A stretch of 64,000 nt of DNA, taken from contig NZ_CP073581.1 of NCBI RefSeq assembly GCF_018200035.1, positions 60,001 through 124,000 on the forward strand, written 5' to 3'. Below are positions 9,259-62,904 of this stretch, piece after piece. The position numbers were made by a program, and so were the translations under genes. Position 1 is the stretch's first letter, and each line of letters begins with the position of its first letter. The notes under the pieces are model-generated. The model searched no databases, was not told the DNA's origin, and saw nothing but the letters and a program-made list of their open reading frames with translations. This stretch comes from Sulfitobacter albidus. GTDB taxonomy: Bacteria; Pseudomonadota; Alphaproteobacteria; Rhodobacterales; Rhodobacteraceae.

Positions 9259-10518
9259 TCATGCAGGTTGCGCCAACTCGCGGGCGTGAATGCCCAAGAC
9301 GATCAGTGCAGGCCACAGCAGGTAGGCTTCAATTTCGATGTTCTCTCCAAAGGACAAAAGCATAAGGGTCATCATGATCCCCAAGGGCAAACGCCCGCGT
9401 GGTCCCATTGCCGCATCCTTTAGGGCCAGCGCCATCTGCCACGCAAAGGGAACAAGAAAGGCCAGAAACCCGACAAGGCCTTTTACAAACAACAACCCGT
9501 ACCACGTATGATGACTGCCGATCGGCATGTATTCCACCGCATGGCTGCCCGGTTGCACGGTAGCATGTCCGAACCAATATCCGTCTGTCTGCCAGCGCTC
9601 CGTTGCGATCCGCTGAAGGGTCTCGCGCACCCGCGTACTGTCTGCCCGCGCGCCTTTGAACGCTGCTACGGCGTCTGCTGCCGCCGTGGCCAGTGTCGTG
9701 CCCAATACTGCCATGGAAGCGGTAAAGGCCGCCAACACCTGCCAAGCCCAGCCACGCAGGATCAGCGGCAACAGGCGCGGCCCGATCGTACAAGCCACCA
9801 GCCCGACCAACCCCATGCGGGATTTGGAGGCAAAGATCATGACGGCGCCCGCCGCGATCCCGATACTGCGCCATTTGATGTCTTTTTCTTCCAGCGCAAA
9901 CAGCACCATCACCGTCCCCAAAAGTGCGGCAAAAGGCGACCAAGGTGCGTAAAACTGCCAGCGGGGCGTCCAGCTTGCGGGATCCCACGTGTAGAAATAG
10001 ACCGAGAAATATTCAGGTCCGGGACCGCCGACAGCCTTGAAGGGGGAAGTAAAAATCTTCTCTGGCAGGCCGATGTAGGGTGCGGCCAGCAGGACAGGCG
10101 CGAGGATCAATGTCCATAAACCCACCACACATTGCGCCCGTACCAGTACCTCACGGCGAATGGGCAGCACGGCGCCTGCCAGCGGGAAAAGGGCCAGGAG
10201 CGCCCAGCCTTTTGCCCAGCCTATTGAGGATTTGATTGTCTTTACCGTGCCAAGGCCCCAATCCAGATGCCCGATCCAAAGTGCAACCAGCATCACGAAC
10301 ATCCCCGCAATCCAGCCCCAGATCACTGGTGGAATGCTTCCCGTTGCGCGCATGTCCTCGCGCACTGCCGGACCGAGATAGAGCACCAGAACAGCCAACC
10401 CGCCCAGCACCCACGCCAGCACGGGCCCCACGATGTAGAGTGCGCCCACCGCATAAAATGGCCATGTCCAGACAAGCGCACGGTAGACCATCCGCTCAAT
10501 CGGGTTTTGGGGGGTCAC
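9259..10518 (-). CDS. O-antigen ligase/polymerase-like membrane protein (Wzy/WaaL type)
   Basis: 419 aa integral membrane protein with about ten hydrophobic segments spread over its length. The periplasmic-loop signature ending in IGSHHTWYGLLFVKGLVGF near residue 345 matches O-antigen ligase/polymerase proteins (PF04932). The preceding soluble stretch (about residues 275-335, RADSTRVRETLQRIATERW) fits their large periplasmic loop. It should polymerise or transfer lipid-linked repeat units at the periplasmic face of the inner membrane. The GTG start overlaps the Wzz-like stop codon (GTGA), so it is translated as the second gene of a wzz-wzy operon. Confidence 0.8.
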   Translation of the reverse strand: MTPQNPIERMVYRALVWTWPFYAVGALYIVGPVLAWVLGGLAVLVLYLGPAVREDMRATGSIPPVIWGWIAGMFVMLVALWIGHLDWGLGTVKTIKSSIGWAKGWALLALFPLAGAVLPIRREVLVRAQCVVGLWTLILAPVLLAAPYIGLPEKIFTSPFKAVGGPGPEYFSVYFYTWDPASWTPRWQFYAPWSPFAALLGTVMVLFALEEKDIKWRSIGIAAGAVMIFASKSRMGLVGLVACTIGPRLLPLILRGWAWQVLAAFTASMAVLGTTLATAAADAVAAFKGARADSTRVRETLQRIATERWQTDGYWFGHATVQPGSHAVEYMPIGSHHTWYGLLFVKGLVGFLAFLVPFAWQMALALKDAAMGPRGRLPLGIMMTLMLLSFGENIEIEAYLLWPALIVLGIHARELAQPA

Positions 10519-11954
10519 GGCTTCACCTCGGGTTTGGTCAACAGACGCGAGATCAGCGCGATCCTGATCCAGCCCATCGCAAGGCTGATCAACAGCATCA
10601 GCGTCGCAGCGATCCCCGCCATCACGGCCAGCTTGCGGTTGGGGGAAGAGGGCTTTTCGGGCAGGGACGGGTTCTCAAGCACTTGCACCAGAGGGTAGGA
10701 GGCATACACGTCCGATTTGCTTGATTGGGTCCGTGCGATGGCTGAGGCAAACACGGCCTCGGCCACCGAGAAATCACGCTCGAGGTCTTTCATCTTGGCG
10801 GCTGCCGGCGCGAAGCTGTCCAGCATGGTTTGCCCCTCGGCTTTCTGCCGCTCAAGGGTCGCCAACTGCTGCCGCGCACCGGAGACATCCACGTGCATGC
10901 GCACCAGCTCGGCCAATAGCTCTGCCCGCGCACCGTCGGGGGCGAGATCAAATGCACTCAACGCCTGCGCGTCCAGACCCGTAATGGATTGTGCCATGGA
11001 CAAGGCCATCGAGGCCGCGCGGTCCCGTGCCGCCTGGGCGGCCTGCACACGCGGGTGACGCGCACCATAGCGCGCACTGGCCTCGGTATAGGCCACTTCG
11101 GTCCGGGCAACTTCGTCCAGCAGGGCAATATAAGCGCCATCGGCAAAGAGCTTGAGCGTCGCTGCTGCGACAGAAGCATCCAGACCCAATTGCGCCTCCA
11201 ATGCCTCTGTGGCTGCCGCGCGATCGCTCAGGGCTGCGCGCTGGGTCTGGATTTGGTCATCCAGCGCCAGATGTCGTTCTAGCAGAACATCATATTGATC
11301 CACCGAAAGCAGGCCGGTCGCCGTTTGCAACGCCTCGATCTGGCGGCGCGTATCGGCCACTGAGGCGCGATAATCCGAAATCGCTTGCAGGCCGCTATCC
11401 TGACGGGTGTCGACCTCATCCGTGCGCAGCGCGTCCAGCTCTGCAAAGAATGCCGCCAGAATGGCATCGCCGCGTGCTTGGGCATCCTCGGGCGTGCGCC
11501 CTGTCGTCTCGAAGTGGATCAGGCTGGTCTGGTCCACCAGTCGCACGCGCGGTTGGCCCAATTCACTGCGGCGGATATTCAGCGAGGCCGCCGCCGCATC
11601 CACGATCCGGTCGGCACCGAGCAGCCGCTTGTAGGTCTCGGTCGGGCTGACGGCATTGCTGGCAAAGGCTGAGTTGGCATAGGAGCTCGCTTGCCCGATG
11701 CCGTTCAGATTCATCGACGCAGAGGCACCAGAGCCGGGCATGATAAGCGAGGTCGTCGAGCGATAGCTGAGCGGAGCGGTCTTGAGATATCCCAGCAACG
11801 GCGCCCAAATCAGGGTCATCCCCAGAATGCCTGTGGCCACATAGCGCGGCAGTCGCTTTAGATCACCCAGCTTGCCGCCCATGACGACACGCTTGACGAC
11901 CCCTCCCGCAGGGGGGCGGTGCGGGGCAGTGAATGGAAATGTGAATGTGATCAT
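10515..11954 (-). CDS. Wzz/GumC-like polysaccharide chain-length/export protein
   Basis: 479 aa from the ATG at 11954, which has AAGGAGC 5 nt upstream; the in-frame GTG at 11969 has no such site. One transmembrane segment lies near residues 45-65 (YVATGILGMTLIWAPLLGYL) and another near 445-465. Between them is a large periplasmic part with Wzz-like N-terminal features (YRSTTSLIMPGS, TETYKRLLGADRIVDAAA) and long Ala/Gln/Glu-rich coiled coils (SARYGARHPRVQAAQAARDRA). There is no kinase domain. The end includes LPEKPSSPNRK, the Pro-rich motif before the last membrane segment. It probably sets EPS chain length with the Wzy-like protein. Its start codon sits inside a strong mRNA hairpin. Confidence 0.82.
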   Translation of the reverse strand: MITFTFPFTAPHRPPAGGVVKRVVMGGKLGDLKRLPRYVATGILGMTLIWAPLLGYLKTAPLSYRSTTSLIMPGSGASASMNLNGIGQASSYANSAFASNAVSPTETYKRLLGADRIVDAAAASLNIRRSELGQPRVRLVDQTSLIHFETTGRTPEDAQARGDAILAAFFAELDALRTDEVDTRQDSGLQAISDYRASVADTRRQIEALQTATGLLSVDQYDVLLERHLALDDQIQTQRAALSDRAAATEALEAQLGLDASVAAATLKLFADGAYIALLDEVARTEVAYTEASARYGARHPRVQAAQAARDRAASMALSMAQSITGLDAQALSAFDLAPDGARAELLAELVRMHVDVSGARQQLATLERQKAEGQTMLDSFAPAAAKMKDLERDFSVAEAVFASAIARTQSSKSDVYASYPLVQVLENPSLPEKPSSPNRKLAVMAGIAATLMLLISLAMGWIRIALISRLLTKPEVKP

Positions 11955-11977
11955 CGGTGGCTCCTTCACCGATGATC
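11949..11977 (-). promoter_or_regulatory. start-codon hairpin in the wzz-like mRNA leader
   Basis: In the minus-strand transcript the arm GATCATCGGTG and the arm CACCGATGATC form a perfect 11-bp stem around the 7-nt loop AAGGAGC. The loop is the Shine-Dalgarno sequence, and the ATG start codon (11954-11952) is in the 3' arm. Folded, the start codon would be masked while the ribosome site stays in the loop. Translational control is inferred from this geometry. Confidence 0.7.
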
Positions 11978-12040: not shown

Positions 12041-12060
12041 CACCTATCCCTTTGGATAGA
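12041..12060. promoter_or_regulatory. candidate EPS operator, copy 1 (CTATCC-CTTT-GGATAG)
   Basis: Perfect 6-4-6 palindrome (12044-12059) in the short gap between the response-regulator stop and the wzz-like start, 90 bp upstream of that start. It matches the palindromes at 14371-14394 and 18747-18770 in arm sequence and spacer length. Confidence 0.6.
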
Positions 12061-12675
12061 TCAGAACAGGCCCGCTTCGCGTGCGATCAATGCGGCTTGG
12101 GTGCGGTTGGCAGCCCCCACTTTGCGGTAAAGGGTTTTGACATGCAGCTTGATCGTCGGTTCGGTGATGTCCAGATCACGCGCGATCTCTTTGTTGGCCT
12201 TGCCTTCCGTCAGCCCCTTTAGAACCTGCAACTCGCGTGGTGTCAGTTTCTCGGCCAGCGCATTTGTCGGAACTTCTTCAATCGCGGTCATGAAATCAAT
12301 GGGCGCATATTGCTCGCCCATGGCCATGAATTTGACCGCATTCACCAGGGATTTGGCGGGCAGTGATTTGGGCACGAATCCCGCGGCCCCGGCTTCCAGC
12401 GCGGCTTCGGCAATCTGGCGCGTTGCCTCCCCCGAGATCAGCGCAACCCGCTGCCCGTTCTTGAGGGCAATCGCACGGCGCAGCCCTTCCAGCCCGTTCA
12501 TCCCCGGCATGTTATAATCAAGCAGGATCAGATCAAACGGCGTATCACTCTCGATGCGCGCACAAGCTTCTGCAAATGTGCCCGCGCTCGCGGTCTCCAT
12601 CTGCCCCTCTCCTTCGAGAAACATCACGAGCGTGTCGCGCAGCAGATCGTGGTCGTCGGCAACCAGTACTCTCAT
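12061..12675 (-). CDS. LuxR/NarL-family response regulator
   Basis: 204 aa. The receiver domain (1-120) has acidic residues in VADDHD, phosphoacceptor Asp53 in LILLDYNMPG, and the conserved Lys in GFVPKSLPAKS. The C-terminal LuxR-type helix-turn-helix (about 140-200) reads LTPRELQVLKGLTEGKANKE and TEPTIKLHVKTLYRKV. It is a DNA-binding regulator activated by phosphorylation. There is no adjacent cognate kinase in an operon, but a hybrid kinase ending in an HPt domain lies 2.3 kb away in the same locus, an obvious phosphodonor. Candidate binding sites (CTATCC-N4-GGATAG) flank the gene and recur through the locus; this link is inferred. Confidence 0.9.
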   Translation of the reverse strand: MRVLVADDHDLLRDTLVMFLEGEGQMETASAGTFAEACARIESDTPFDLILLDYNMPGMNGLEGLRRAIALKNGQRVALISGEATRQIAEAALEAGAAGFVPKSLPAKSLVNAVKFMAMGEQYAPIDFMTAIEEVPTNALAEKLTPRELQVLKGLTEGKANKEIARDLDITEPTIKLHVKTLYRKVGAANRTQAALIAREAGLF

Positions 12676-12762
12676 GTCGTGTCCTTTGAGCGTTAAGGCA
12701 TGATAACCTCTGATTGAGGTGCTTCAAAGGCGCAATCGCGGGGAAATAGGGCTAACGCTGCT

Positions 12763-12777
12763 CCCAAAAGGATAGGG
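12763..12777. promoter_or_regulatory. degenerate EPS operator-like site (one intact half GGATAGGG)
   Basis: The segment CTCCC-AAAA-GGATAGGG keeps one intact arm of the repeated palindrome and only part of the other. It lies in the 249-bp divergent gap between the response regulator (starting at 12675, minus) and the glycosyltransferase fusion (12925, plus). It is the weakest of the four copies. Confidence 0.35.
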
Positions 12778-12880
12778 TCGCCACCAGCCTGTGCCCGTTG
12801 CGCACCCAAACGGGGAGAGCCATCAACCAAAAGCTCCCCGTACCTGTCCGCCCGCTCAGTTGCGCCAAGCACATGTTTTC

Positions 12881-12911
12881 GTTGATCACTTTGCCAATGC
12901 TTTTGATCAAC
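12881..12911 (+). promoter_or_regulatory. inverted repeat directly upstream of the wecG-like start
   Basis: GTTGATCA (12881-12888) and TGATCAAC (12904-12911) form an 8-bp stem with a 15-nt loop, ending at the AAGGAC ribosome site of the gene starting at 12925. It could be an operator or an mRNA leader hairpin; the sequence does not decide which. Confidence 0.35.
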
Positions 12912-12924
12912 AAGGACTGCCACC

Positions 12925-14304
12925 ATGACATATCTCCCCACGTTCGACGGCCCACTTACACCTGCCACCGCCCTGCGCGAAACCTATCTGCCCAGCCTGC
13001 GCGCGACACTGGTCGATGCCACCACGCCCCAAACGATTGCAGCACTTTTGGCGCCTGGCACGCGGCGTGTGAACTTTATGAATGCCCATTGCTTCAACGT
13101 AATGGCCCGCGACAGACACTATGCAGCAGCAGTGAACAGCGCCGACTATCTGCTGCCAGACGGCATCGGTGTCGCCCTTGCAGCCAAAATGACAGGCCAA
13201 GCGCTTGCTGAAAACCTGAACGGGACCGACTTCATTCCTGCATTGCTGCGCGAGGCCGCACAGCGCGGGAAATCCGTCTATCTATTCGGCGGCACCGCTG
13301 GAACCGCAGAAAAGGCGGCGCATCATCTGATCCTCAAAATCCCCGCCTTGCGGATCGCCGGTGTGCGCGATGGGTATGCCCAGGCCGGAAACGACGCCGA
13401 GATCATCGCAGACATCAATGCCAGCGGTGCCGATATCGTTCTGGTCGCACTTGGTGTTCCGATGCAAGAACTCTGGCTGCACCGAAATGCACCCTACATC
13501 AATGCGGACCTGACTATGGGCGTTGGGGCGGCACTGGATTTCTTTGCCGGCAATGTGGTGCGAGCCCCTCTTTGGGTGCGCAAGGCAAAATGCGAATGGG
13601 TCTGGCGGCTGGCGATGGAGCCGCGCCGGTTGGCAAAGCGCTATCTTGCGGGCAACCCCAGCTTTCTGGCCCGCGCGGCAAAGCAGGCGGCAGGAACGCT
13701 CACCCCTGCCGCTATCGTGCGCCGCGCGCTCGATATCACACTATCGCTGACAGCGCTGGTGCTGCTCTCGCCGCTGCTCGCCATGACCGCCCTCGCCGTG
13801 AAGGCCGAAAGCAAGGGCCCTGCCTTGTTCACCCAAACCCGCATCGGTCAGAACGGTCGCCCCTTTACCATCCTCAAATTCCGCTCAATGGTCTGGGAAG
13901 CCGAAGCGTTGCGCGCAGACGTTCTGGCACGCTCGGACCGCGAAGGCATCTGCTTCAAGTCGAAATCGGATCCCCGCATCACGGGCGTGGGCCGCTTCAT
14001 CCGCCGCACGTCGATCGACGAATTGCCGCAACTCGTTAATGTTCTGCTGGGGCAGATGTCGATTGTCGGGCCCCGCCCGGCCTTGCCCTGCGAAGTTGAC
14101 GCCTATCCCGAACGCGCCTTTGGCCGCCTTGCGGTCAAACCGGGCATCACGGGCGTCTGGCAGGTGTCGGGCCGTGCTGAGGTGGGTTTTGACCAGATGG
14201 TCGAAATGGACCTCGCCTATGCGAGCAAGCGCAATATCGCCCTCGACCTCATCCTCATCGCCCTCACATTCCGCGTGGTCCTGACAGGCCGCGGCGCACA
14301 TTAA
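12925..14304 (+). CDS. WecG/TagA/CpsF glycosyltransferase fused to polyprenyl-phosphate sugar-1-phosphate transferase
   Basis: 459 aa with two enzymes in one chain. Residues ~30-230 are a WecG/TagA/CpsF (GT26) domain: RRVNFMNAHCFNVMARD, YLLPDGIGVALAAK, LNGTDFIPALL, GVPMQELWLHRN, MGVGAALDFFAGNVVRAP. From ~265 there is a membrane segment (LDITLSLTALVLLSPLLAM) and the catalytic domain of a bacterial sugar transferase (PF02397): KFRSMVWEAEALR, DPRITGVGRFIRRTSIDELP, GPRPALPCEVDAY, KPGITGVWQVSGRAEVGFD. The second domain primes repeat-unit synthesis by loading a sugar-phosphate onto undecaprenyl phosphate; the first typically adds the next sugar. Fusing steps one and two is unusual. It is probably the initiating enzyme of this EPS locus. 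Confidence 0.88.
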   Translation: MTYLPTFDGPLTPATALRETYLPSLRATLVDATTPQTIAALLAPGTRRVNFMNAHCFNVMARDRHYAAAVNSADYLLPDGIGVALAAKMTGQALAENLNGTDFIPALLREAAQRGKSVYLFGGTAGTAEKAAHHLILKIPALRIAGVRDGYAQAGNDAEIIADINASGADIVLVALGVPMQELWLHRNAPYINADLTMGVGAALDFFAGNVVRAPLWVRKAKCEWVWRLAMEPRRLAKRYLAGNPSFLARAAKQAAGTLTPAAIVRRALDITLSLTALVLLSPLLAMTALAVKAESKGPALFTQTRIGQNGRPFTILKFRSMVWEAEALRADVLARSDREGICFKSKSDPRITGVGRFIRRTSIDELPQLVNVLLGQMSIVGPRPALPCEVDAYPERAFGRLAVKPGITGVWQVSGRAEVGFDQMVEMDLAYASKRNIALDLILIALTFRVVLTGRGAH

Positions 14305-14370
14305 GCCGCACATCAGGAAATAGATCAGGACACAGCTTCGCACCGCCGCGTTCGCACCGGCCCAAGAGCA

Positions 14371-14394
14371 CCCCCTATCCGAAAGGATAGGGGG
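14371..14394. promoter_or_regulatory. candidate EPS operator, copy 3 (perfect 10-4-10 palindrome)
   Basis: Arms CCCCCTATCC and GGATAGGGGG flank a GAAA spacer, a perfect palindrome whose core is CTATCC-N4-GGATAG. An extra CTATCC follows at once (14395-14400). It lies 66 bp past the WecG-fusion stop and about 75 bp before the start at 14470. It lacks a T-tract, so operator is preferred over terminator, though a hairpin in the RNA is possible. Confidence 0.6.
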
Positions 14395-14469
14395 CTATCC
14401 CGATGCCCAGATGCGGCCACCTCGCTGCTGTGACATCAAGCAGGCAACAACAGTATTCAGGAGTTATCC

Positions 14470-14946
14470 ATGCTACACCGCATTTCCGCCTGTCTGGTCG
14501 CAATGGCATTGGTCATCGGCCTTGGCACATCGGCCAAAGCCGAAAACACCCTTTTGACGGTCACGTTTGATGGGAAAACCCATAGCTTCGACGCCGCTGC
14601 ACTTGAAAAGCTCGGCCTTGAGGTTGTCGAGACATCCACGATCTGGACCGAAGGGGTGCAGCGTTTCGAGGGTGTGTCGCTGGCCGTACTCGCCGCTGAG
14701 ATCGGGGCGACAGAAGGCAAGTTTCTTGCGACGGCGATCAATGACTATACCATTGAAATCCCGCTGTCCGATGCGACTGAAAACGGGCCTGTCATCGCCA
14801 TGCGCGTGAACGGCGAGGAAATGTCGGTCCGTGACAAGGGGCCGCTCTGGATCATCTATCCCTATGACGCAAACGCCGATTACCGTACCGAAGTCATCTA
14901 CTCGCGGAGCATCTGGCAACTCGACAGGATTGAAGTGGTCCAGTAA
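14470..14946 (+). CDS. secreted molybdopterin-binding-fold protein (likely sensor accessory)
   Basis: 158 aa preceded by CAGGAG. Residues 1-24 are a Sec signal peptide (cleavage after TSAKA). The mature ~134 residues resemble the small version of the oxidoreductase molybdopterin-binding fold: FEGVSLAVLAAEIGA, AINDYTIEIPLSDATENGPVIAMRVNGEEMS, GPLWIIYPYD. It has no Cys that could ligate molybdenum, so it is unlikely to be a working oxidoreductase. The gene sits 12 bp before a membrane hybrid histidine kinase and is surely co-transcribed with it. A periplasmic ligand-sensing partner for that kinase is my inference; the family has no established function known to me. Confidence 0.7.
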   Translation: MLHRISACLVAMALVIGLGTSAKAENTLLTVTFDGKTHSFDAAALEKLGLEVVETSTIWTEGVQRFEGVSLAVLAAEIGATEGKFLATAINDYTIEIPLSDATENGPVIAMRVNGEEMSVRDKGPLWIIYPYDANADYRTEVIYSRSIWQLDRIEVVQ

Positions 14947-14958
14947 CTCCCTGGAGGC

Positions 14959-17484
14959 ATGATCCACAAAGCAGGTACACTTGTGGCGAACCCAACCAAG
15001 ACCCGCATCAAACCCGGCCAGGCGTTTATCGCCGTGGCCGGACTTGTCGTTGTGCTCGCCATTGCCTTCCTGGCATGGAGCGTGCGCAGCGAGATCGAGG
15101 AGCTCAGCTCGGCCAGTTCGGACAACGTGCAATGGTCACTTTCGCAATCCGAAGTCGAATTTCAGGAATTCTCAAGCCGTATACGGGTTGGCGCGGACCT
15201 TGCCGGGGTGCGCAGGCGGTTCGATATTTTCTACAGCAGGATCGGTACCGTATCTACGGCGCAGGTTTTCGAGGAATTGCGCGAGGATCCGGAGTTCAGT
15301 GCCACCTTGAATAAAATTCAAACCTGGCTCGACACGACAGTCCCCTACATCGATGCGAGTGATGTCGAGCTGACGGGCAACATGCCAAGGCTGGCGGGGC
15401 TGGTACAGGACATCAGGCCCGAAGTCCGCAAGCTGTCCAACTCTGGCCTCGGTATCTTTGCCCGCAATGCGGACAGGCAGCGCTCGGATGTCGCGCGCAC
15501 CCTGACCGAACTCGCACTGGCATTGGCCGCCTTGATCGCAGCGCTTGGCCTATCGGTGTTGCATCTTGTCCGTCTCAACAAAAGACTGTTGCGCAAGGAA
15601 AGCGAGCAGCGTCAGACGGCCACGCGCATGAACACGGTGCTCAATACATCGCTCGACGGTGTGATCGTGAGTGATGATGCAGGCCAAATACTCGAATTCA
15701 GCCCCGCCGCCGAAGAGATCTTCGGCTATCGTGCGCAGGATGTGATCGGCCATGAACTTGGTGCGATCATTGTGCCCGACCACATGCGCGCAGGCCATGA
15801 TGCGGGTATGGAGCGGATGCGCAAGGGCGGCGAAAAACGGGTGGTGGGCAAGGGCCGCGTCCAGCTTGAGGCAAAGCGCGCAGACGGATCGATTTTTCCC
15901 GTGGAGTTGGCGATCCAGTCTGCCGTCACGCCGCAGGGCGATATCTTCATCGCGTTTCTGCGCGACATCACCCAGCAAAAGGCGGATGAGGCCGAACTGG
16001 TAGATGCCCGCGACAAAGCCATCGCAGGAGAGAAAAGCCGCTCGGAGTTTCTGGCCACCATGAGCCATGAGATCCGCACGCCGCTCAACGGTCTGTTGGG
16101 CAATCTCAGCCTCCTTCGCGATACGCCCGTGAGTACCAAACAAGACACCTATATGCGGAATATGGAGACGTCGGGCCGCCTGCTGCTCAGCCATGTTTCG
16201 GACGTACTCGACATCACCCGATACGATTCCGGTAAAGTCAGCGCAAAACTTGAGCCAGTGAATATCTCGGACCTGCTGCAGGATATCATCGACAGCCAGA
16301 GCGGCATGGCATCAACCCAGGAAACCACATTGGATTGGGGGTGGAATGGCCCCGCACAGCATTGGATTACCTCCGACAGCGACCGCCTCCAGCACGTGTT
16401 GATGAACCTCGTCGGCAATGCGGTCAAATTCACCAAGCGCGGGCGTGTTTCCGTCACCGTAGGGTGGGAAAATGACCAGATCACCTTCGAAATCGAGGAC
16501 ACGGGCGCAGGTATTCCCGAAGATCTGCAGGACCGCATCTTCGATGATTTTGTCACGGGCAACGCCGCCTATGACCGCGAAGTGGGCGGCTCCGGCCTTG
16601 GCCTCAGCATCGCGAAACGCTTTGTCCATGTCCTGGGCGGTGAAATCGACGTCGCCAGTGTGATGGGAGAGGGGAGCACCTTCCGCGTGACCCTGCCCGC
16701 GACCAAAGCGCAAGCCACGCCTCAAAATGATCGCGACAATAACAGCAATGTCGCGACAGCACCGCAACGTGTGCTGATCGTAGAGGACAACGAGATCAAC
16801 CGCTTTGTCGTGCGCGAGATGCTGCAGGCCGATGGTCACCACGTGTCAGAGGCCCACGACGGCCAACAGGGCGTCGATATGGCCGCCGCCGAGAAATTCG
16901 ATCTTATCCTCATGGATATCAGCATGCCTGTGCTTGACGGACGCAGTGCCACGCGTCGCATCAGAGAAAGCAATGGGGCATCGGCCCATGCCCGCATCAT
17001 CGCCCTGACTGCGAATGCGATGGCCGCGGAGCGGGAGGACTTTCTGGCGCACGGTATGAACGACGTCCTCACCAAGCCACTGAGAAAATCGGATCTCCGC
17101 ATGGCGATGGGGGAGGAATCCCAGCCTGCTCCGAAAGACTTTTCGGACCTCGTTGACCACGCGCATATGAGGGAAACCCTTGAGGTCGTCGGTCCCGAGA
17201 AATTTCACAAATTGCTTGCCCGCTACGGCGGTGAAGTGGAGCAAATGATCGCATGGCTGCACAGCGATGCACGTCTTGACCGTGTCGAGATTGCGCAGCA
17301 GGCCCATAAGATTGCAGGCAGCGCCGCCATGTTCGGTGCTACGTCCTTCCGCGCTAAACTGCTTTCTCTCGAAGAGGCAGCAAAGGCGGGCGAGGATGCA
17401 CAGGTCAGGGCCGCCATTGCCACGCTCCCCGATCTGTGGAAGCGCAGCAAAAAGGCATTGTCCGAGATCGCGCTCACGGAATAA
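14959..17484 (+). CDS. hybrid sensor histidine kinase with PAS, receiver and HPt domains
   Basis: 841 aa. A membrane segment near 23-43, a periplasmic sensor of ~135 aa (45-180), and a second membrane segment (~181-205) come first. Then follow a PAS domain (~222-340), a HisKA domain with His370 in MSHEIRTPLNG, HATPase_c (NLVGNAVKFTKRG, IEDTGAGIP, GGSGLGLSIAKRF), a receiver domain with Asp653 in LILMDISMP, and a C-terminal HPt with His783 in QQAHKIAGSAAMFG. The His-Asp-His chain lets it feed a separate response regulator, most simply the LuxR-type regulator in this locus. It is 12 bp downstream of the secreted molybdopterin-fold gene. Its 3' end overlaps the convergent wza-like gene by 11 bp. 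Confidence 0.92.
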   Translation: MIHKAGTLVANPTKTRIKPGQAFIAVAGLVVVLAIAFLAWSVRSEIEELSSASSDNVQWSLSQSEVEFQEFSSRIRVGADLAGVRRRFDIFYSRIGTVSTAQVFEELREDPEFSATLNKIQTWLDTTVPYIDASDVELTGNMPRLAGLVQDIRPEVRKLSNSGLGIFARNADRQRSDVARTLTELALALAALIAALGLSVLHLVRLNKRLLRKESEQRQTATRMNTVLNTSLDGVIVSDDAGQILEFSPAAEEIFGYRAQDVIGHELGAIIVPDHMRAGHDAGMERMRKGGEKRVVGKGRVQLEAKRADGSIFPVELAIQSAVTPQGDIFIAFLRDITQQKADEAELVDARDKAIAGEKSRSEFLATMSHEIRTPLNGLLGNLSLLRDTPVSTKQDTYMRNMETSGRLLLSHVSDVLDITRYDSGKVSAKLEPVNISDLLQDIIDSQSGMASTQETTLDWGWNGPAQHWITSDSDRLQHVLMNLVGNAVKFTKRGRVSVTVGWENDQITFEIEDTGAGIPEDLQDRIFDDFVTGNAAYDREVGGSGLGLSIAKRFVHVLGGEIDVASVMGEGSTFRVTLPATKAQATPQNDRDNNSNVATAPQRVLIVEDNEINRFVVREMLQADGHHVSEAHDGQQGVDMAAAEKFDLILMDISMPVLDGRSATRRIRESNGASAHARIIALTANAMAAEREDFLAHGMNDVLTKPLRKSDLRMAMGEESQPAPKDFSDLVDHAHMRETLEVVGPEKFHKLLARYGGEVEQMIAWLHSDARLDRVEIAQQAHKIAGSAAMFGATSFRAKLLSLEEAAKAGEDAQVRAAIATLPDLWKRSKKALSEIALTE

Positions 17485-18673
17485 GGGTCATCATGCCGAC
17501 GACGCGACCGATCTCGGCCAGATTGGTCACGGTGCTGTCATAACAGGCCATCGCATCACCGGGCAGCAGATAGGGGTCATAGTCATCCCGGTCTGCACGG
17601 CGCAGCAGGTTCTCGATGTTGCGCTCGATCACCACAGAAACGCCCGTCACAGGATTGCGCGAGAAGAGCACAGCAGAGCGGTTCGCGCTGGTGGTCCGTG
17701 CGCCACCGACACAGTTGGCATCAATCACCGCCTGCATATACCGCGATCCATACGGCACCTGACGCACCGTTTGCCCCACAGCCGAGGCCGCATTGTTCTG
17801 GGCAGGCTGGGTCAGGTTGGAGAGAAACAGGCTCACCCCCGGAGGGCTGATCGGGCTGGGGCGCATCAAATCATCCTGAAAACACTGGCGGCTTGGCACG
17901 CGCACTTCGTCGCCTGTCAACAGCATGATGTCGACACCGTTGCTGCCCTCGAACACGCCGCGCATGTCGAGGCGGTAGACCTGACTGCCCCGCCGCACTT
18001 CCACTGCCGAGATATCCGCATCGGGCCGTACGCCACCTGCGGCGCGCAAGGCTGCGGAGAGGTTGCGCGCTTCGGTCGAGGCGCCCGAGGCGCCCTGTCG
18101 CTGGCTGTCTACGGTGTCACCGCGCACGCCGCCGATCTCGACCACATGCGGCTCGAATACAGCGCCAGATACGCCCACGGAGACGGAGGCGAAATCGGTC
18201 GCGCGCACTGATATTCTGGGGCGGGTCTGATAGAACTGATCGGCAACCAATGCTGCTGCAATATCTGCCTCGACCTCTGCGGTGCTGCGCCCCTGGGCAC
18301 GGATGGGCGGCAGGAACGGCAGCTTGAGCATCCCGTCGCGCGAGACGACATAGCTGCCGTTGAAGGTATCATCCTCGGCCACCCGCACATCCAGCAGATC
18401 GTTGCGCGACAAACGCTCACCTTTCAGCGCGCTCGCCGCGATGCTGGAGCCTTTGCCGGCACTCCCGCCAAGGGGCAGACATTTCTGCACGTTGATCTCT
18501 TCGGAGCGTAGCAATTCCGCCTGTCTGCGCGTGACATCGGGCTGGCGGTATTGAGCCTGATAGCCGTCTCCCTGCGCCACAGGCTCAAGGTTGTCTGGTT
18601 GATCGAAACCGGCACATGCACTGGTCATGAGCAATGCGCTGATCGCGCCGGACAGAGTGGATCGTTTTGCCAT
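17474..18673 (-). CDS. Wza-like polysaccharide export lipoprotein
   Basis: 399 aa with AGGAGG upstream of the ATG at 18673. A lipoprotein signal ends in TSAC (Cys20). The Poly_export domain follows (about 90-165: RLSRNDLLDVRVAEDDTF, YVVSRDGMLKLPFLPPIRAQ, ADQFYQTRPRISVRATD), then SLBB-like segments (VGVSGAVFEPHVVEIGG, ALRAAGGVRPDADISAVEV, DIMLLTGDEVRVPS). The length fits outer-membrane polysaccharide exporters. It should form the exit channel for the EPS made by this locus. It is transcribed away from the flippase gene from a shared 191-bp intergenic region with a candidate operator. Confidence 0.85.
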   Translation of the reverse strand: MAKRSTLSGAISALLMTSACAGFDQPDNLEPVAQGDGYQAQYRQPDVTRRQAELLRSEEINVQKCLPLGGSAGKGSSIAASALKGERLSRNDLLDVRVAEDDTFNGSYVVSRDGMLKLPFLPPIRAQGRSTAEVEADIAAALVADQFYQTRPRISVRATDFASVSVGVSGAVFEPHVVEIGGVRGDTVDSQRQGASGASTEARNLSAALRAAGGVRPDADISAVEVRRGSQVYRLDMRGVFEGSNGVDIMLLTGDEVRVPSRQCFQDDLMRPSPISPPGVSLFLSNLTQPAQNNAASAVGQTVRQVPYGSRYMQAVIDANCVGGARTTSANRSAVLFSRNPVTGVSVVIERNIENLLRRADRDDYDPYLLPGDAMACYDSTVTNLAEIGRVVGMMTLIP

Positions 18674-18746
18674 GATGGCCTCCTGAAATTGGTTGAGGGC
18701 ACCATAATTTCAACAGGTTACGTACGCGAGGAGGCATCAGGTTAAT

Positions 18747-18770
18747 CCCCCTATCCTGACGGGTAGGGTC
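18747..18770. promoter_or_regulatory. candidate EPS operator, copy 4 (CTATCC-TGAC-GGGTAG)
   Basis: Near-perfect copy of the palindrome (one mismatch in the second arm; core 18751-18766) in the divergent gap between the wza-like (start 18673) and wzx-like (start 18865) genes, about 78 and 99 bp from the two starts, so it could serve both. Confidence 0.55.
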
Positions 18771-18864
18771 CGCTCCTTTTGCCCCCGAGGCCTGTCCTGC
18801 GGGGGCCGGGACAGCTGGCATTGCCCCGCGCTAGGCTCAGCCCATCCAAACGAAAGCCCACGCA

Positions 18865-20106
18865 ATGCCTCTAGCCAAGACGACAAAATCATTCGCCACC
18901 AACCTGATCGCCTACGGCGCATCGGAAGTGGCTGCCAAAGCCTCGCGGCTCCTTGTTGTGGTGGCCGTGGCCCGCACGTTGGACCTCACACAGATTGGTA
19001 TCGCCGCATCGGCAATGGCGGCAGGTGATCTGCTCAAGGCCCTCACCGAGAACGGTGTGGGCCAACGGATCATAGCCGCCGGCGACGCGACGCTTGAGGC
19101 GACTTGCACTGCCGCCCGGCGCATCTTCTGGCTTTGGTGTATCGGTCTTTTTGCCGTGCAAGCCCTTATCGCGAGCGCACTCTACCTGTCGGGGGGCAGC
19201 ACAGTGCTCGCGGGGCTGATCCTGCTCATGGGGCTTGAGTATCTCTTCATGCCCGCAGGTCTGGTTCAGGTGGCGCTGGCCATGCGCGCAGGCAAGCTGC
19301 GCCAGACGGCAGCCATCGGCGGCGCGCAGGTGGTGGGCGCAAACCTGCTCTCGGTCCTGTTTGTGCTGATCTTTCCCTCCGCTCTCGCGCTTATTCTACC
19401 ACGCGTGCTGTCCGCGCCGATCTGGCTGTGCGCTGTCCGCGCGCTGCATCCCTGGGCGCCAGAGGCAGGCACAAAACCCGCGCCGCTGGGCCCTTTCATC
19501 GCCTATGGCTGGGCAGTCCTCGGTGTTGAAATCGTCAAAGTGCTCCGCTTGCAAGGCGACAAGATCGTGGTCGGTCTTACCCTCGGCCCCCAAGCGCTTG
19601 GCCTCTACTTCATGGCCTTCAACGCGGGGCTCAGCCTTTCCAACGCCTTCGCAACGGCTTTCTCAACGGTTGTCTTTCCCCATCTGAGCCAATCCAATGA
19701 TCCCGTCGCTGCCATGCGACAGAGCATTGTCGTGGGCCTCTGCCTCATTGCGCCAATCGTTATGGTGCAATCCGCACTCGCCTCCTTGTACGTTCCTGCG
19801 CTGCTGGGTCAGGGGTGGGAGGACGTTGCCCCACTGGTCTCGATCCTTTGCCTTGTGGCGATCCCCACCACGCTTTGGGCCACGGCCGCCGGCTGGCTGC
19901 GTGTGCAGGGCAAACCGCAGGTCGAGCTGTGGATGACGGCTGTTCTTGCCCTCGCTGTGCTGGCCAGCACGCTGCTCCTTGCCCCCTTCGGTCTGAATGC
20001 AATGGCGGTCGGATATCTCGCTGTAGCGGGGGGGCTCATGCTCCTCGGCGCTCTTTGCACACTTCAAGGCGATCTTGTCCCTTCCTCCCCTGAGGTCCAA
20101 CCATGA
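18865..20106 (+). CDS. oligosaccharide flippase family protein (Wzx-like)
   Basis: 413 aa, 12 or so hydrophobic segments across the whole length (for example TVLAGLILLMGLEYLFMP, ANLLSVLFVLIFPSALALIL and VGLCLIAPIVMVQSALASLY). The MOP-family pattern of lipopolysaccharide/EPS flippases is seen in the N-terminal NLIAYGASEVAAKASRLLVVVAVARTL and in KIVVGLTLGPQALGLYFMAFNAG. It should move undecaprenyl-linked repeat units across the inner membrane. The stop codon overlaps the next glycosyltransferase start (ATGA), starting a four-gene operon wzx-GT2-GT2-GT4. Confidence 0.85.
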   Translation: MPLAKTTKSFATNLIAYGASEVAAKASRLLVVVAVARTLDLTQIGIAASAMAAGDLLKALTENGVGQRIIAAGDATLEATCTAARRIFWLWCIGLFAVQALIASALYLSGGSTVLAGLILLMGLEYLFMPAGLVQVALAMRAGKLRQTAAIGGAQVVGANLLSVLFVLIFPSALALILPRVLSAPIWLCAVRALHPWAPEAGTKPAPLGPFIAYGWAVLGVEIVKVLRLQGDKIVVGLTLGPQALGLYFMAFNAGLSLSNAFATAFSTVVFPHLSQSNDPVAAMRQSIVVGLCLIAPIVMVQSALASLYVPALLGQGWEDVAPLVSILCLVAIPTTLWATAAGWLRVQGKPQVELWMTAVLALAVLASTLLLAPFGLNAMAVGYLAVAGGLMLLGALCTLQGDLVPSSPEVQP

Positions 20107-26016: not shown

Positions 26017-26118
26017 ACTGCCCTGCCGGCCTTGACTTCACCGCGCCCGCGCGGTGTAGCTGCGCGCAGTTTCAGCGCGCCGATGGGGGCGCGCGTCAGC
26101 GCGACGAAAGGGACCGCC

Positions 26119-27900
26119 ATGCACGCTTACAGAACCCACTCCTGCGCCTCGCTCACTGCCGCGAATGTGGGCGATACCGTCCGTCTTTCGGGATGGGTGC
26201 ACCGGGTGCGCGATCACGGCGGCGTTCTGTTTATCGACTTGCGCGATGCCTACGGCATGACGCAGGTGCTGTGCGATCCCGACAGCCCGGTGTTTGCCGA
26301 GGTCGAAAAGGTCCGTTCTGAATGGTGTATCCGCATCGACGGCACCGTGAAGGCCCGCGATGAGGCGTTGGTGAACCCCAAGCTGCCCACCGGCGAGATC
26401 GAGGTTTACGCCCGCGATATCGAAGTGCTAGGCCGGGTGAACGGCGATCTGCCGTTGCAGGTGTTCGGCGATCAGGAATACCCAGAGGAAACGCGCCTGC
26501 GCTACCGCTACCTTGATCTGCGCCGCGAGCGGATGCAGCGCAACATGGCGCTGCGCTCGGACGTTGTGGCCTCATTGCGCAAACGCATGTGGGATCAGGA
26601 CTTCCGCGAATATCAGACACCGATCATCACCGCCTCCAGCCCCGAAGGGGCGCGCGATTTTCTGGTGCCCTCGCGTCTGCATCCGGGCAAGTTCTACGCC
26701 CTGCCGCAGGCGCCGCAGCAGTTCAAGCAGTTGCTGATGGTGTCGGGTTTCGACAAATACTTTCAGATCGCGCCCTGTTTCCGCGACGAAGACCCGCGCG
26801 CCGACCGCTCGCCCACCGATTTCTACCAGCTCGACCTCGAGATGTCGTTTGTCGAGCAGCAGGACGTTTTCGACACGATTCAGCCCGTGCTGACCGGCGT
26901 GTTCGAGGAATTCGGCGGGGGCCGGAAGGTCGATCAGGACTGGCCGCAGATCTCCTACAAGGACGCGGCGCTGTGGTACGGCTCTGACAAGCCCGACCTG
27001 CGCAACCCGATCAAGATGCAGGTCGTGTCCGAGCATTTTGCGGGCTCCGGTTTTGCCATCTTTGCCAAGCTGCTGGAGCAGGAAGGCACCGAGATCCGCG
27101 CGATCCCCGCGCCCACCGGCGGCAGCCGCAAGTTCTGCGACCGCATGAATGCCTTTGCCCAGAAGGAAGGTCTGCCCGGCATGGGCTATATCTTCTGGCG
27201 CGATCAGGGTGAGGGGCGCGAGGCCGCTGGCCCGCTGGCCAAGAACATCGGCCCCGAGCGCACGGAGGCGATCCGCCAGCAACTCGGCCTCGATACCGGC
27301 GACGCGGCGTTCTTCCTTGGCGGCAAGCCCAAGACGTTCGAGGCCGTCGCAGGCCGCGCGCGCAATGTCATCGGCGAAGAGCTGGGGCTGACGGACACCG
27401 ACCGTTTTGCCTTTGCCTGGATCGTGGATTTCCCGATCTACGAAAAGGACGCCGAAACCGGCAAGATCGATTTCGAGCATAACCCCTTCTCCATGCCGCA
27501 GGGCGGGATGGAAGCGCTGGAGGGCGATCCGCTGGAGGTGCTGGGATATCAGTACGATCTGGCGTGCAACGGCTACGAACTGGTGTCCGGCGCGATCCGG
27601 AACCACCGCCCCGAGATCATGTTCAAAGCTTTTGAGATCGCGGGCTACGGCGAGGAAGAGGTGCGCAAGCGCTTCGGCGGTATGGTCAACGCCTTCCAAT
27701 ACGGCGCCCCGCCCCACGGAGGCTGCGCCGCGGGCATCGACCGGATCGTGATGCTCCTGGCCGATGAAAGCAACATCCGTGAGGTCATCCTGTTCCCGAT
27801 GAACCAGCGCGCCGAGGATCTGATGATGAACGCGCCCTCGGATCCGACCAGCGATCAGCTGATGGAGCTGGGGCTGCGCGTGATCCCGCAGGACCAATAA
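26119..27900 (+). CDS. aspS: aspartyl-tRNA synthetase
   Basis: 593 aa from [12 protein letters not shown] at 26119, after AAAGGGA; the longer frame upstream is not conserved-looking. An N-terminal OB-fold anticodon domain ([18 protein letters not shown]) is followed by class II motif 2 in [20 protein letters not shown], a GAD insertion domain (~280-420), and motif 3 in [13 protein letters not shown]. This is the bacterial-type enzyme. It charges tRNA-Asp; whether it also charges tRNA-Asn was not judged. A strong terminator follows immediately. Confidence 0.96.
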
Positions 27901-60985: not shown

Positions 60986-62904
60986 GCCTGATCCTTGCCC
61001 TTGGCAATGCGCGCCTGTGGTTTGACGTCGCGCAGGCGGCTTTGCTGTATCTTGATCCGGGCGCGGTCGGCGGTTGGATAGGCCTCAAGCGGGGGTTCCC
61101 CGTCGTAGAGCGCCTGCAACATCACGTCGCGCGCGATGGGGGCCGCCGCGGTGGAGCCGCCGCCGCCATGCTCGACCAGCACGGCGCAGGCGTAGCGTGG
61201 ATTGTCATAGGGGGCAAAGCTGACGAAAAGCGCGTGGTCGCGCTGCTCCCACGGCACCTCATTGTTGTTGACCACCGCCGAGCGCACCTGACTTGTGCCC
61301 GTCTTGCCCGCCATGCGCAGCCCGTCGGCGATGATGCGGCTGCGGTAGGCGGTGCCGCGCCGGTCGTTGACGACGGCGTACATGGATTTGCGCATCTTTC
61401 GCAGGTTGTTTTCGTTCATGCCCAGGGGGCCACCGCCAAGGATCGGTTGTTCCACCCCGTTGACCGATTTCACCAGCCGCGGCGCAATTGCGCGCCCGGT
61501 GGCAAGCCGCGCGGTCATCACGGCCAGCTGCATGGGGGAGGCCAGCATGAAACCCTGCCCGATGGAGGCGTTGACGGTATCGCCGATCACCCAGCTTTCG
61601 CCGCGGTTCTGAAGCTTCCAATCCTTGGTGGGGGTCAGCCCGGAATTGACCGAGCTGAGCGCAAGATCATGCCGTTCGCCCAACCCGAAGCGCCGGGCCA
61701 TGGCCGAGATCTTCTCGATCCCGACCTTGAGGGCGAGATCGTAGTAATAGACGTCGCAGGAGCGTTTCAGCGAGGTTTCCAGATCGACCCAGCCGTGGCC
61801 CGCGCGTTTCCAGCAGTGGAAGCGGCGACCGCCGATTTCCAGATGGCCGGGGCAATAGACGGTCTCATCGGGGCCGACGATACCTTCCTCGATCGCGGCC
61901 ATGGCGGTCATCATCTTGAAGGTCGATCCGGGCGGGTAGGCGCCTTGCACGGTCTTGTTGACCAGGGGTCGGTATTTCGATTGCAGCAGCGGGTCGTAAT
62001 CCTTTGAACTGATCCCGCCGATAAACAGGTTCGGATCGTAGGAGGGGGCGGAGCAATTGGCGACAACGTCACCGTTTTCGCAATCAAGGATAACGACGGC
62101 GGCGCTTTCGCCTTCGAGCCGGGCCTGCACGTAGTTTTGCAGCTTGGCGCTGACGGTCAGTTGCAGATCGGCGCCCGATTGCCCCTCGCGGCGCGACAGC
62201 TCGCGCATGACGCGACCCGTTGCGTTGACCTCGACCTGTTTGGTGCCGGCCGCGCCGCGCAAAAGATCTTCCTCGCGGGCTTCGACGTTGATCTTGCCGA
62301 TGTTGAAGCGGGGGATGCGCAGCACCGCGTCGGGGTCTTCCAACGCGTCGAGGTCTTTCTGGCTGACGCGCCCGACGCGGCCCACCACATGGGCAAAATC
62401 CGATCCGCGCGGGTAGACGCGGGTCGAGCCCACCTCGGGCGAGACACCGGGCAGGGCGGGGGCGTTGACCGACACCGCGCTGACCGCGTCCCAGCTGACG
62501 TCCTCGGCGATCGTGACGGGCAGAAACGGGGCGGAGCGTTTGATTTCGGCCAGCGCATCGGCGCGCTCTTCCGGGGTGAGGTCGATCAGCGTGGCCAGGC
62601 GGTCGAGCACGTCCTCGACGTCGCCTGCGTCCTCGCGCACCATCACGATGCGGTAGCTGGGCACGTTTTGCGCCAGCTGCACGCCGTTACGGTCAAAAAT
62701 CTCGCCGCGTTTTGGCGGGATCAGGCGGATGTTGATGCGGTTTTCCTCGGCCAGCAGACGGAATTGATCGGCCTGATCGACCTGAAGATACCGCATCCGC
62801 GCGGCCAGCCCGCCCATGAACAACAGCTGCGCACCGCCCAGCAGGATGGCGCGGCGGCTCAGCTTGCCGTGAATAGCCTCTTTTTCGGCTCTGCTGCGTC
62901 TCAT
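60982..62904 (-). CDS. mrdA: penicillin-binding protein 2
   Basis: 640 aa. A single N-terminal membrane segment (RAILLGGAQLLFMGGLA) is followed by the pedestal (FDRNGVQLAQNVPSYRIVMV) and the transpeptidase domain with SxxK in YPPGSTFKMMTAMAA, SxN-like SCDVYYYDLAL, and the KTG motif in RMAGKTGTSQVRSA. It cross-links side-wall peptidoglycan with RodA/MreC. It is in the order mreC-mreD-mrdA-rodA (transcribed right to left). Confidence 0.95.
   Translation of the reverse strand: MRRSRAEKEAIHGKLSRRAILLGGAQLLFMGGLAARMRYLQVDQADQFRLLAEENRINIRLIPPKRGEIFDRNGVQLAQNVPSYRIVMVREDAGDVEDVLDRLATLIDLTPEERADALAEIKRSAPFLPVTIAEDVSWDAVSAVSVNAPALPGVSPEVGSTRVYPRGSDFAHVVGRVGRVSQKDLDALEDPDAVLRIPRFNIGKINVEAREEDLLRGAAGTKQVEVNATGRVMRELSRREGQSGADLQLTVSAKLQNYVQARLEGESAAVVILDCENGDVVANCSAPSYDPNLFIGGISSKDYDPLLQSKYRPLVNKTVQGAYPPGSTFKMMTAMAAIEEGIVGPDETVYCPGHLEIGGRRFHCWKRAGHGWVDLETSLKRSCDVYYYDLALKVGIEKISAMARRFGLGERHDLALSSVNSGLTPTKDWKLQNRGESWVIGDTVNASIGQGFMLASPMQLAVMTARLATGRAIAPRLVKSVNGVEQPILGGGPLGMNENNLRKMRKSMYAVVNDRRGTAYRSRIIADGLRMAGKTGTSQVRSAVVNNNEVPWEQRDHALFVSFAPYDNPRYACAVLVEHGGGGSTAAAPIARDVMLQALYDGEPPLEAYPTADRARIKIQQSRLRDVKPQARIAKGKDQA

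Follow-up and report, generated by a model that had tools for sequence, protein, structure and literature searches.

A candidate operator linking a PruR-type protein, a hybrid kinase and a NarL-type regulator to exopolysaccharide genes in Rhodobacteraceae

We analysed a 64,000-nucleotide stretch of the Sulfitobacter albidus genome (RefSeq assembly GCF_018200035.1, contig NZ_CP073581.1, positions 60,001 to 124,000; hereafter the window), in which an exopolysaccharide (EPS) locus carries near-perfect copies of the palindrome CTATCC-N4-GGATAG ahead of its wzz-, wza- and wzx-type genes and of a gene pair for a PruR-type pterin-binding protein and a hybrid histidine kinase. Comparison across related genomes indicates that the palindrome probably serves as operator for the NarL-type response regulator encoded next to it, which would act in a pterin-linked phosphorelay controlling EPS. 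Operator, regulator and targets appear to form a regulon that is well supported by comparative evidence, and family membership gives good grounds to infer the pterin input.

Near-perfect copies are concentrated at the EPS locus

The palindrome occurs exactly at 12044–12059 and 14375–14390 of the window and with one mismatch at 18751–18766, in agreement with the three near-perfect copies reported in a first-pass annotation of this DNA. Allowing at most one mismatch gave these three matches; shuffled versions averaged 0.03, and none of 100 reached three, while allowing three mismatches gave 15 matches against 13.6 by chance. Because the looser total does not rise above chance, the signal is confined to near-perfect copies, and a site was therefore defined throughout by no more than one mismatch unless an exact match is stated. 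Copy 1 (12044–12059) lies just beyond the point where the regulator gene stops, 74 bp ahead of the wzz-like start. Copy 2, whose perfect 10-bp arms span 14371–14394, lies 79 bp upstream of pruR, and copy 3 (18751–18766) stands between the divergent wza and wzx genes, 77 bp from the start of the former and 98 bp from that of the latter. These distances bear out the 75–100 bp given by the annotation.

A matrix built from 172 sites, taken from loci whose regulators are 68–87% identical, ranked the same three sites at the top of the window (29.4, 24.0 and 23.1; next 9.7); the near-invariance of this matrix carries no weight, since its training sites were picked at no more than one mismatch. The fuller form of the operator is probably CCTATCC-N4-GGATAGG. 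In the whole genome (3.86 Mb) two places match exactly and two with one mismatch, three of the four within the locus and the fourth (C1:298986) within an open coding frame as judged by eye. The palindrome is thus not frequent elsewhere, which the first-pass annotation had named as a possible refutation, and its clustering at the locus is as expected of a dedicated regulon. Elsewhere in the window, two near-identical two-mismatch relatives (CGATCC-N4-GGGTAG) stand 477 bp apart at 61924 and 62401, perhaps as a local repeat.

The palindrome precedes orthologous target genes

Regulator orthologs were collected from 62 genomes of the same genus and from the best 80 of at least 455 confirmed candidates in a named-genome collection, whose records are mostly Rhodobacteraceae (Sulfitobacter, Loktanella, Yoonia, Octadecabacter, Leisingera and Salipiger), with some uncultured and two oddly labelled ones. 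A further 56 stretches were added, three of them from the window's own genome and the rest from other genomes. Removal of loci with identical regulator segments left 110 loci, comprising 89 first-class loci (regulator identity at least 68%; 1.76 Mb in total) and 21 lower-identity loci (47–59%).

When all 4096 palindromes of the form X-N4-rc(X), rc being the reverse complement, were counted in the 89 first-class loci, CTATCC headed the ranking: 63 loci contained 100 copies of it, and the average palindrome occurred 0.21 times. No copy of its arms was found at spacings of 0–3 or 5–10, and the second-ranked palindrome, GGATAG-N4-CTATCC (28 copies), is a product of the third half-site at pruR described below. 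At least one site was present in 79 of the 89 loci.

Genes were placed in the loci by tblastn with proteins of the window, and for each gene the preceding 300 bp were scanned, excluding matches with less than 35% query coverage, genes whose match begins past residue 25 (PruR excepted) and genes with less than 300 bp of upstream sequence inside the stretch. Sites preceded pruR in 73/85 cases, wza in 44/51, wzx in 45/53 and wzz in 36/47, the wza and wzx counts being mostly one shared site in the divergent gap that was scored for both genes; the conservation in orthologous EPS loci that the first-pass annotation had proposed as a check is thus observed. The corresponding counts were 26/88 for the regulator and 7/47 for the wecG-like gene. 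Inner-operon genes, whose upstream regions are mostly coding, served as controls and gave 0/57 for the first glycosyltransferase, 0/57 for the gene after wzz, 0/17 for the third glycosyltransferase, 1/54 for the second and 1/67 for the kinase. The median distance from site to start codon was 79 bp for wzz (75–138), 82 bp for wza (69–129), 100 bp for wzx (92–132) and 106 bp for pruR (69–150).

A count of palindromes per promoter that involved no selection of sites also returned CTATCC as the commonest exact palindrome, at pruR (53/85; next GGATAG with 28, then CTACCC with 4), wzz (20/47; next 7), wza (14/51; next 1) and the regulator (12/88; next 5), and at four inner-operon genes every palindrome reached two at most. 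In flanks aligned on the sites (25 of the 26 sites in the regulator profile), the core is conserved by the selection of sites, so that only flanking positions are informative, and most of these held little information. Masking by the longest open reading frame covers 89% of these GC-rich loci and places 22 of 100 exact sites 'inside', which makes it uninformative for intergenic position; homology-defined genes were therefore used to judge where the sites lie.

Variant sites at the regulator and pruR promoters

A half-copy near 12770 had also been reported, and it does exist, as GGATAG at 12769–12774; its conservation does not place it at the wecG-like gene. It is part of an asymmetric half-operator, CCTATCC-TTTT-GGGAGCA (12759–12776, minus strand), that ends 83 bp before the ATG of the regulator, and its matrix score of −0.1 sets it apart from a full site. 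Across regulator promoters CCTATCC is the commonest heptamer, exact in 37/88 and within one mismatch in 62/88, while an exact copy of the facing heptamer, GGATAGG, is present in only 5/88. Among 300 permuted heptamers the mean count was 0.69 and the maximum was 37, the same as the real count, which may reflect a permutation that restored the heptamer itself. Because of this conservation we assign the half-copy to the regulator's own promoter, which presumably keeps an asymmetric, weaker site.

At pruR, a third half-site, an exact CTATCC at 14395–14400, extends copy 2 into an array of three half-sites at a 10-bp pitch (14371–14400). Lying exactly 10 bp past the palindrome, the third half-site recurs within one mismatch in 51 of the 73 site-bearing pruR flanks, 29 of them exact, and is nearly absent elsewhere (wzz 1/36, wza 1/44, wzx 2/45). 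Since a 10-bp pitch places the half-sites on the same face of the helix, the array suggests cooperative loading of the regulator at the sensor operon.

A PruR-type protein and a hybrid kinase adjoin the regulator

The regulator gene (12061–12675, minus strand) encodes a PF00072 receiver followed by a PF00196 GerE/LuxR-type helix-turn-helix, and the best solved relative of its product in the PDB is NarL; we presume this protein to be the operator binder. On the plus strand, pruR (14470–14946) stands directly upstream of the gene for the hybrid histidine kinase (14959–17484) in an operon-like arrangement. Pfam assigns to the kinase PAS, HisKA, HATPase_c, Response_reg and Hpt domains behind an N-terminal region, so that a locus with its own LuxR-type regulator and an HPt-bearing hybrid kinase, as first annotated, is what the domain search returns.

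The protein encoded by pruR had been annotated as having a molybdopterin fold. A SUOX fold is indeed found, and its identity is that of a PruR-type pterin-binding protein, as it matches PDB entries named 'Pterin Binding Protein' (7RKB, 1.1e-29; 7KOS, 2.9e-29; also 7KP2). The molybdenum-ligand cysteine is lacking, residue 59, a tryptophan, aligns to the PruR tryptophan, and the sole cysteine is at residue 8; the N-terminus, where a secretion signal would stand, is hydrophobic. Residue conservation was scored in homologs after exclusion of kinases with less than 60% coverage, PruRs with less than 50% coverage and any sequence with a stop codon. Among 100 PruR homologs the tryptophan is kept in 98% and the NDY motif in 96–99%. 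In the kinase, the WX7E motif is WSLSQSEVE from residue 59, whose W is kept in 100% and whose E is kept in 94% of 98 homologs, and the predicted phospho-sites H370, D653 and H783 are 97–100% conserved in the same set. Because of the PDB matches and the conserved Trp, NDY and WX7E residues, we assign the two proteins as a PruR–DTB-type pair, encoded next to a NarL-type regulator and preceded by the operator. Both pruR and the kinase gene stand beside the regulator in 83 of the 89 first-class loci.

Among the remaining genes, the presumed target of copy 1 (10515–11969, minus strand) is Wzz/chain-length-determinant-like, a tentative name since its GNVR domain match falls below the cut-off. Copy 3 would serve both a Wza-type polysaccharide export protein (17474–18673, minus strand; Pfam Poly_export and SLBB_2) and a Wzx-type flippase (18865–20106, plus strand; Polysacc_synt_3) whose gene heads a run of glycosyltransferase genes. 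The wecG-like gene (12925–14304, plus strand) encodes, according to Pfam, a WecG/TagA-type glycosyltransferase fused to a bacterial sugar transferase, and few of its orthologs have a site of their own.

Site and regulator occur together across the family

In the 62 genus genomes we found 44 exact places, of which 34 fall within the stretches fetched around a regulator ortholog, against 11 places for the reversed palindrome; this control is perhaps slightly inflated, as GATAGG-N4-CCTATC itself recurs in 5 of the 21 lower-identity loci. Taken together, the 25 genus genomes without a regulator match as good as 1e-60 have a single exact place. A family set of 296 genomes from 295 genera, with a regulator homolog defined by an E-value of at most 1e-50, gave 116 exact places against 8 for the control. 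An exact site was present in 72 of 149 family genomes with a regulator homolog and in 7 of 147 without one (Fisher p ~7e-19, kinship ignored). When the best regulator match was below 1e-77, 35 of 52 family genomes had the site, and the remaining 97 contributed 37. Outside the family, a homolog at an E-value of at most 1e-40 was found in 9 of 289 genomes of the class; these nine loci, about 3.6 kb each, are mostly without a site, L212 having one with a single mismatch and L208 one with two.

Two identical copies with 10-bp arms, GGCTCTATCC-N4-GGATAGAGCC, were seen between convergent genes, one of them rmlA-like by eye (L182:7381 and L183:10063). They share one 68-kb contig of G046 and apparently represent a duplication or an assembly repeat.

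Lower-identity regulators and loci with other polysaccharide genes

Regulators of 47–59% identity adjoin PruR and a hybrid kinase in most such loci seen, and at their pruR promoters the half-sites read CTATCC or CTATAC, with the spacing unchanged. A site was found in 16 of the 21 lower-identity loci, which contain six exact CTATAC palindromes in six loci versus four CTATCC in three. In a midpoint-rooted tree of 123 regulators, the first class forms one group (support 0.86) nested in a lower-identity grade, the support for the joint group being only 0.33. In three loci fetched for the regulator alone (L075, L082 and L083), sites precede at least one of the genes for mannose-1-phosphate guanylyltransferase, a GDP-mannose-type dehydrogenase and HlyD-type proteins. 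The same gene pattern, labelled alginate-like from its Pfam matches, lies behind the sites of four loci fetched for an exact site (L194, L195, L196 and L199), and in L066 and L197 a guanylyltransferase gene is present with no site before it. The presence of sites at Wzx-type as well as alginate-like loci suggests that the operator follows two kinds of polysaccharide locus. As a separate observation, four loci (L067, L068, L070 and L072) encode, about 4–6 kb from a lower-identity regulator, a protein 84–85% identical to the product of 26032–27900 in the window, and lack the window's EPS set near that regulator.

In 31 of the 89 first-class loci, pruR is present without wzz, wza or wzx in the stretch, and 23 of these 31 still have a site at pruR. 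Some loci without these EPS genes retain the site just past the regulator. The gene behind it encodes a receiver–SpoIIE (PP2C-type) phosphatase in L058 (10067–11449) and L117 (10618–12178) and an amidase-like protein in L054 (seven proteins were tested across such loci). The phosphatase genes suggest that the regulator may have an additional output. A second site followed by glycosyltransferase genes occurs in L054, L132 and L140, and L058 has a sugar nucleotidyltransferase gene between the regulator and pruR.

Alternative explanations

Several observations weigh against the palindrome being the dedicated operator of the adjacent regulator. Of the 44 exact sites found in the genus, ten do not fall within the regulator stretches; with neighbours read by eye, two of these ten, on one contig, stand beyond the 3' end of rml-like sugar genes. 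In the family, 77 of the 149 regulator-bearing genomes lack an exact site, which may in part be due to lower-identity regulators and a half-site drifting to CTATAC. Ten of the 89 first-class loci, three of them shorter than 12 kb, have no site within one mismatch; degraded copies stand at the expected positions in L121, L136, L148, L156 and L173 and weak ones in L145, while no convincing site was found around the regulator in L063, L163, L164 and L177. Three of the ten (L121, L145 and L148) retain a syntenic EPS locus. A full site precedes the regulator itself in only 26 of 88 cases. As to the input, a TIGR02685 search of the genome for a PruA-type pteridine reductase returned 38 matches, all below the cut-off, as generic short-chain dehydrogenases would probably give.

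Chance recurrence in a GC-rich genome would fit the count of window matches at three mismatches, and is refuted by the three near-perfect copies where 0.03 were expected, by the rank of the palindrome, by its placement at promoters and by the co-occurrence in the family, so that its probability is negligible. Very improbable, too, is the idea that the inverted repeats are RNA or DNA hairpins, such as terminators or attenuators, rather than protein sites. Copy 2, with arms perfect over 10 bp, and the 10-bp-armed copy between convergent genes on the G046 contig, which is terminator-like in position, would suit a hairpin; yet a hairpin would tolerate many arm sequences, and only CTATCC-N4, at one spacing, recurs to speak of. 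Moreover, the divergent wza and wzx genes share a single site between them, which would act in both directions, and the regulator's own site is asymmetric and would pair poorly. It also seems improbable, if less extremely so, that the palindrome belongs to a different, distantly encoded factor while the adjacent regulator acts elsewhere. L063, where a 70% identical regulator has no good site nearby and the PruR match is 29% identical, is in keeping with this idea, and among factors the co-occurrence was compared for the adjacent regulator only, whose binding is predicted from that co-occurrence. A distant factor would, however, leave unexplained the strong co-occurrence of site and regulator across 295 genera, the persistence of sites with the regulator–pruR–kinase trio where EPS genes differ (23/31), the conserved half-site at the regulator's own promoter, and the single exact site in the 25 genus genomes with a weak regulator match (>1e-60).

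The operator and regulator may also be correctly identified and the kinase input be something other than pterin, either another PruR ligand or a signal through another kinase, which we regard as unlikely, though as a proposal to be taken seriously. In its favour, the pterin binding described in passages of PMC13259868 concerns the Agrobacterium and Vibrio proteins and not that of the window, and the sub-threshold TIGR02685 matches name no pteridine reductase. It is opposed by the tryptophan, asparagine and tyrosine named in the review, each present in 98–99% of the 100 homologs, by the WX7E motif kept in the kinases and by the 83 of 89 regulator loci with pruR and kinase together. The preferred account of the operator is a pterin-linked phosphorelay.

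Relation to known systems and proposed mechanism

Operators of the NarL/FixJ family are typically inverted repeats of about 16 bp, and NarL itself recognises heptamers of the form TACYNMT in a 7-2-7 arrangement. The window regulator resembles this family in its receiver and GerE helix-turn-helix. Compared by eye, the half-site (C)CTATCC and the NarL heptamer are not the same sequence, and with the TA step one base off they do not share a register; the proposed targets of the window regulator are EPS genes, whereas NarL acts on nitrate genes. In enteric bacteria, the RcsCDB phosphorelay with RcsB controls the capsule. The window system is like it in placing a hybrid kinase, an HPt and a NarL-type regulator over polysaccharide, and differs in its sensor input, in its operator, in the HPt being fused to the kinase and in having PruR, which RcsCDB does not. 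FlcA of Azospirillum is also of the NarL type. Passages of PMC4264754 describe it as controlling flocculation, a likeness in being an alphaproteobacterial response regulator, with no operator or PruR link seen in them.

The closest counterpart is found in passages of PMC13259868, which report, crediting Greenwich et al. 2024, the PruR–DcpA system of Agrobacterium tumefaciens and PruR–DTB systems. As described there, PruR carries a tryptophan where the molybdenum-ligand cysteine would be, its partners are DcpA (cyclic di-GMP) or DTB kinases with a periplasmic WX7E motif, and PruR–DTB pairs are broadly represented in Proteobacteria. The window pair shares the cysteine-less, tryptophan-bearing PruR, the partner gene directly downstream and WX7E in the partner's N-terminal region; the partner is of the kinase type, as in the Ruegeria pomeroyi example given in the same source, and unlike the comparison system it also carries an HPt domain. 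The output of DcpA is cyclic di-GMP, while a regulator, an operator and targets are proposed here. In the text of PMC13259868 the terms 'response regulator' and 'target gene' are absent, and no DTB-kinase output is named there. Among the open-access matches listed on PruR, the operator and Rhodobacterales EPS regulation, we found no DTB-kinase response regulator, and none of those on the operator or on EPS regulation indicates that this operator has been described, in line with the first-pass annotation, which knew of no description. A hybrid kinase and a NarL-type regulator acting on polysaccharide is a known kind of system; the operator and its link to PruR–DTB appear to be new.

We propose that the PruR-type protein would bind pterin in the periplasm and act on the hybrid kinase through its periplasmic part; from the kinase histidine, phosphate would pass to the receiver, then to the HPt and finally to the NarL-type regulator. 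The phosphorylated regulator dimer would bind the palindromes, together with the three-half-site array at the sensor operon, and so switch the EPS operons (wzz, wza, wzx and the genes that follow) and the pruR–kinase operon, the weaker asymmetric site serving the regulator's own promoter. Activation seems somewhat more probable than repression, because sites end, at the median, 79–106 bp ahead of the start codon, a distance in which a promoter could still fit between site and gene.

On a broader interpretation, for which and against which the chances seem evenly balanced, this would be the missing output arm of PruR–DTB pterin signalling: a phosphorelay of Rhodobacteraceae with its own NarL-type regulator, acting at CCTATCC-N4-GGATAGG to control EPS, one regulator class serving Wzx-type loci and an older grade alginate-like ones. 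Extracellular pterins, perhaps algal or from neighbours, would then set roseobacter slime through transcription, without cyclic di-GMP. The proposal offers PruR–DTB signalling a concrete output, with a regulator type, an exact operator and a short list of targets that can be tested in culturable marine bacteria, and the motif would allow EPS operons of the family to be assigned to the regulator from their DNA alone.

A second conserved stretch between the operator and wzx

No sigma-70-like −35/−10 peaks were found near the sites; the one exception was at wzx, where 30 of 45 flanks have a TTG at a distance of 12 bp on the far side of the site. The sequence from the operator to wzx (18767–18815) was considered as a stable RNA hairpin, which was unsupported (z = +1.08), and as a sigma-70 promoter, which it did not resemble by eye. 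It forms a second conserved stretch, in which TTG is followed by CCTGTCC-like and GGCG...GAC blocks.

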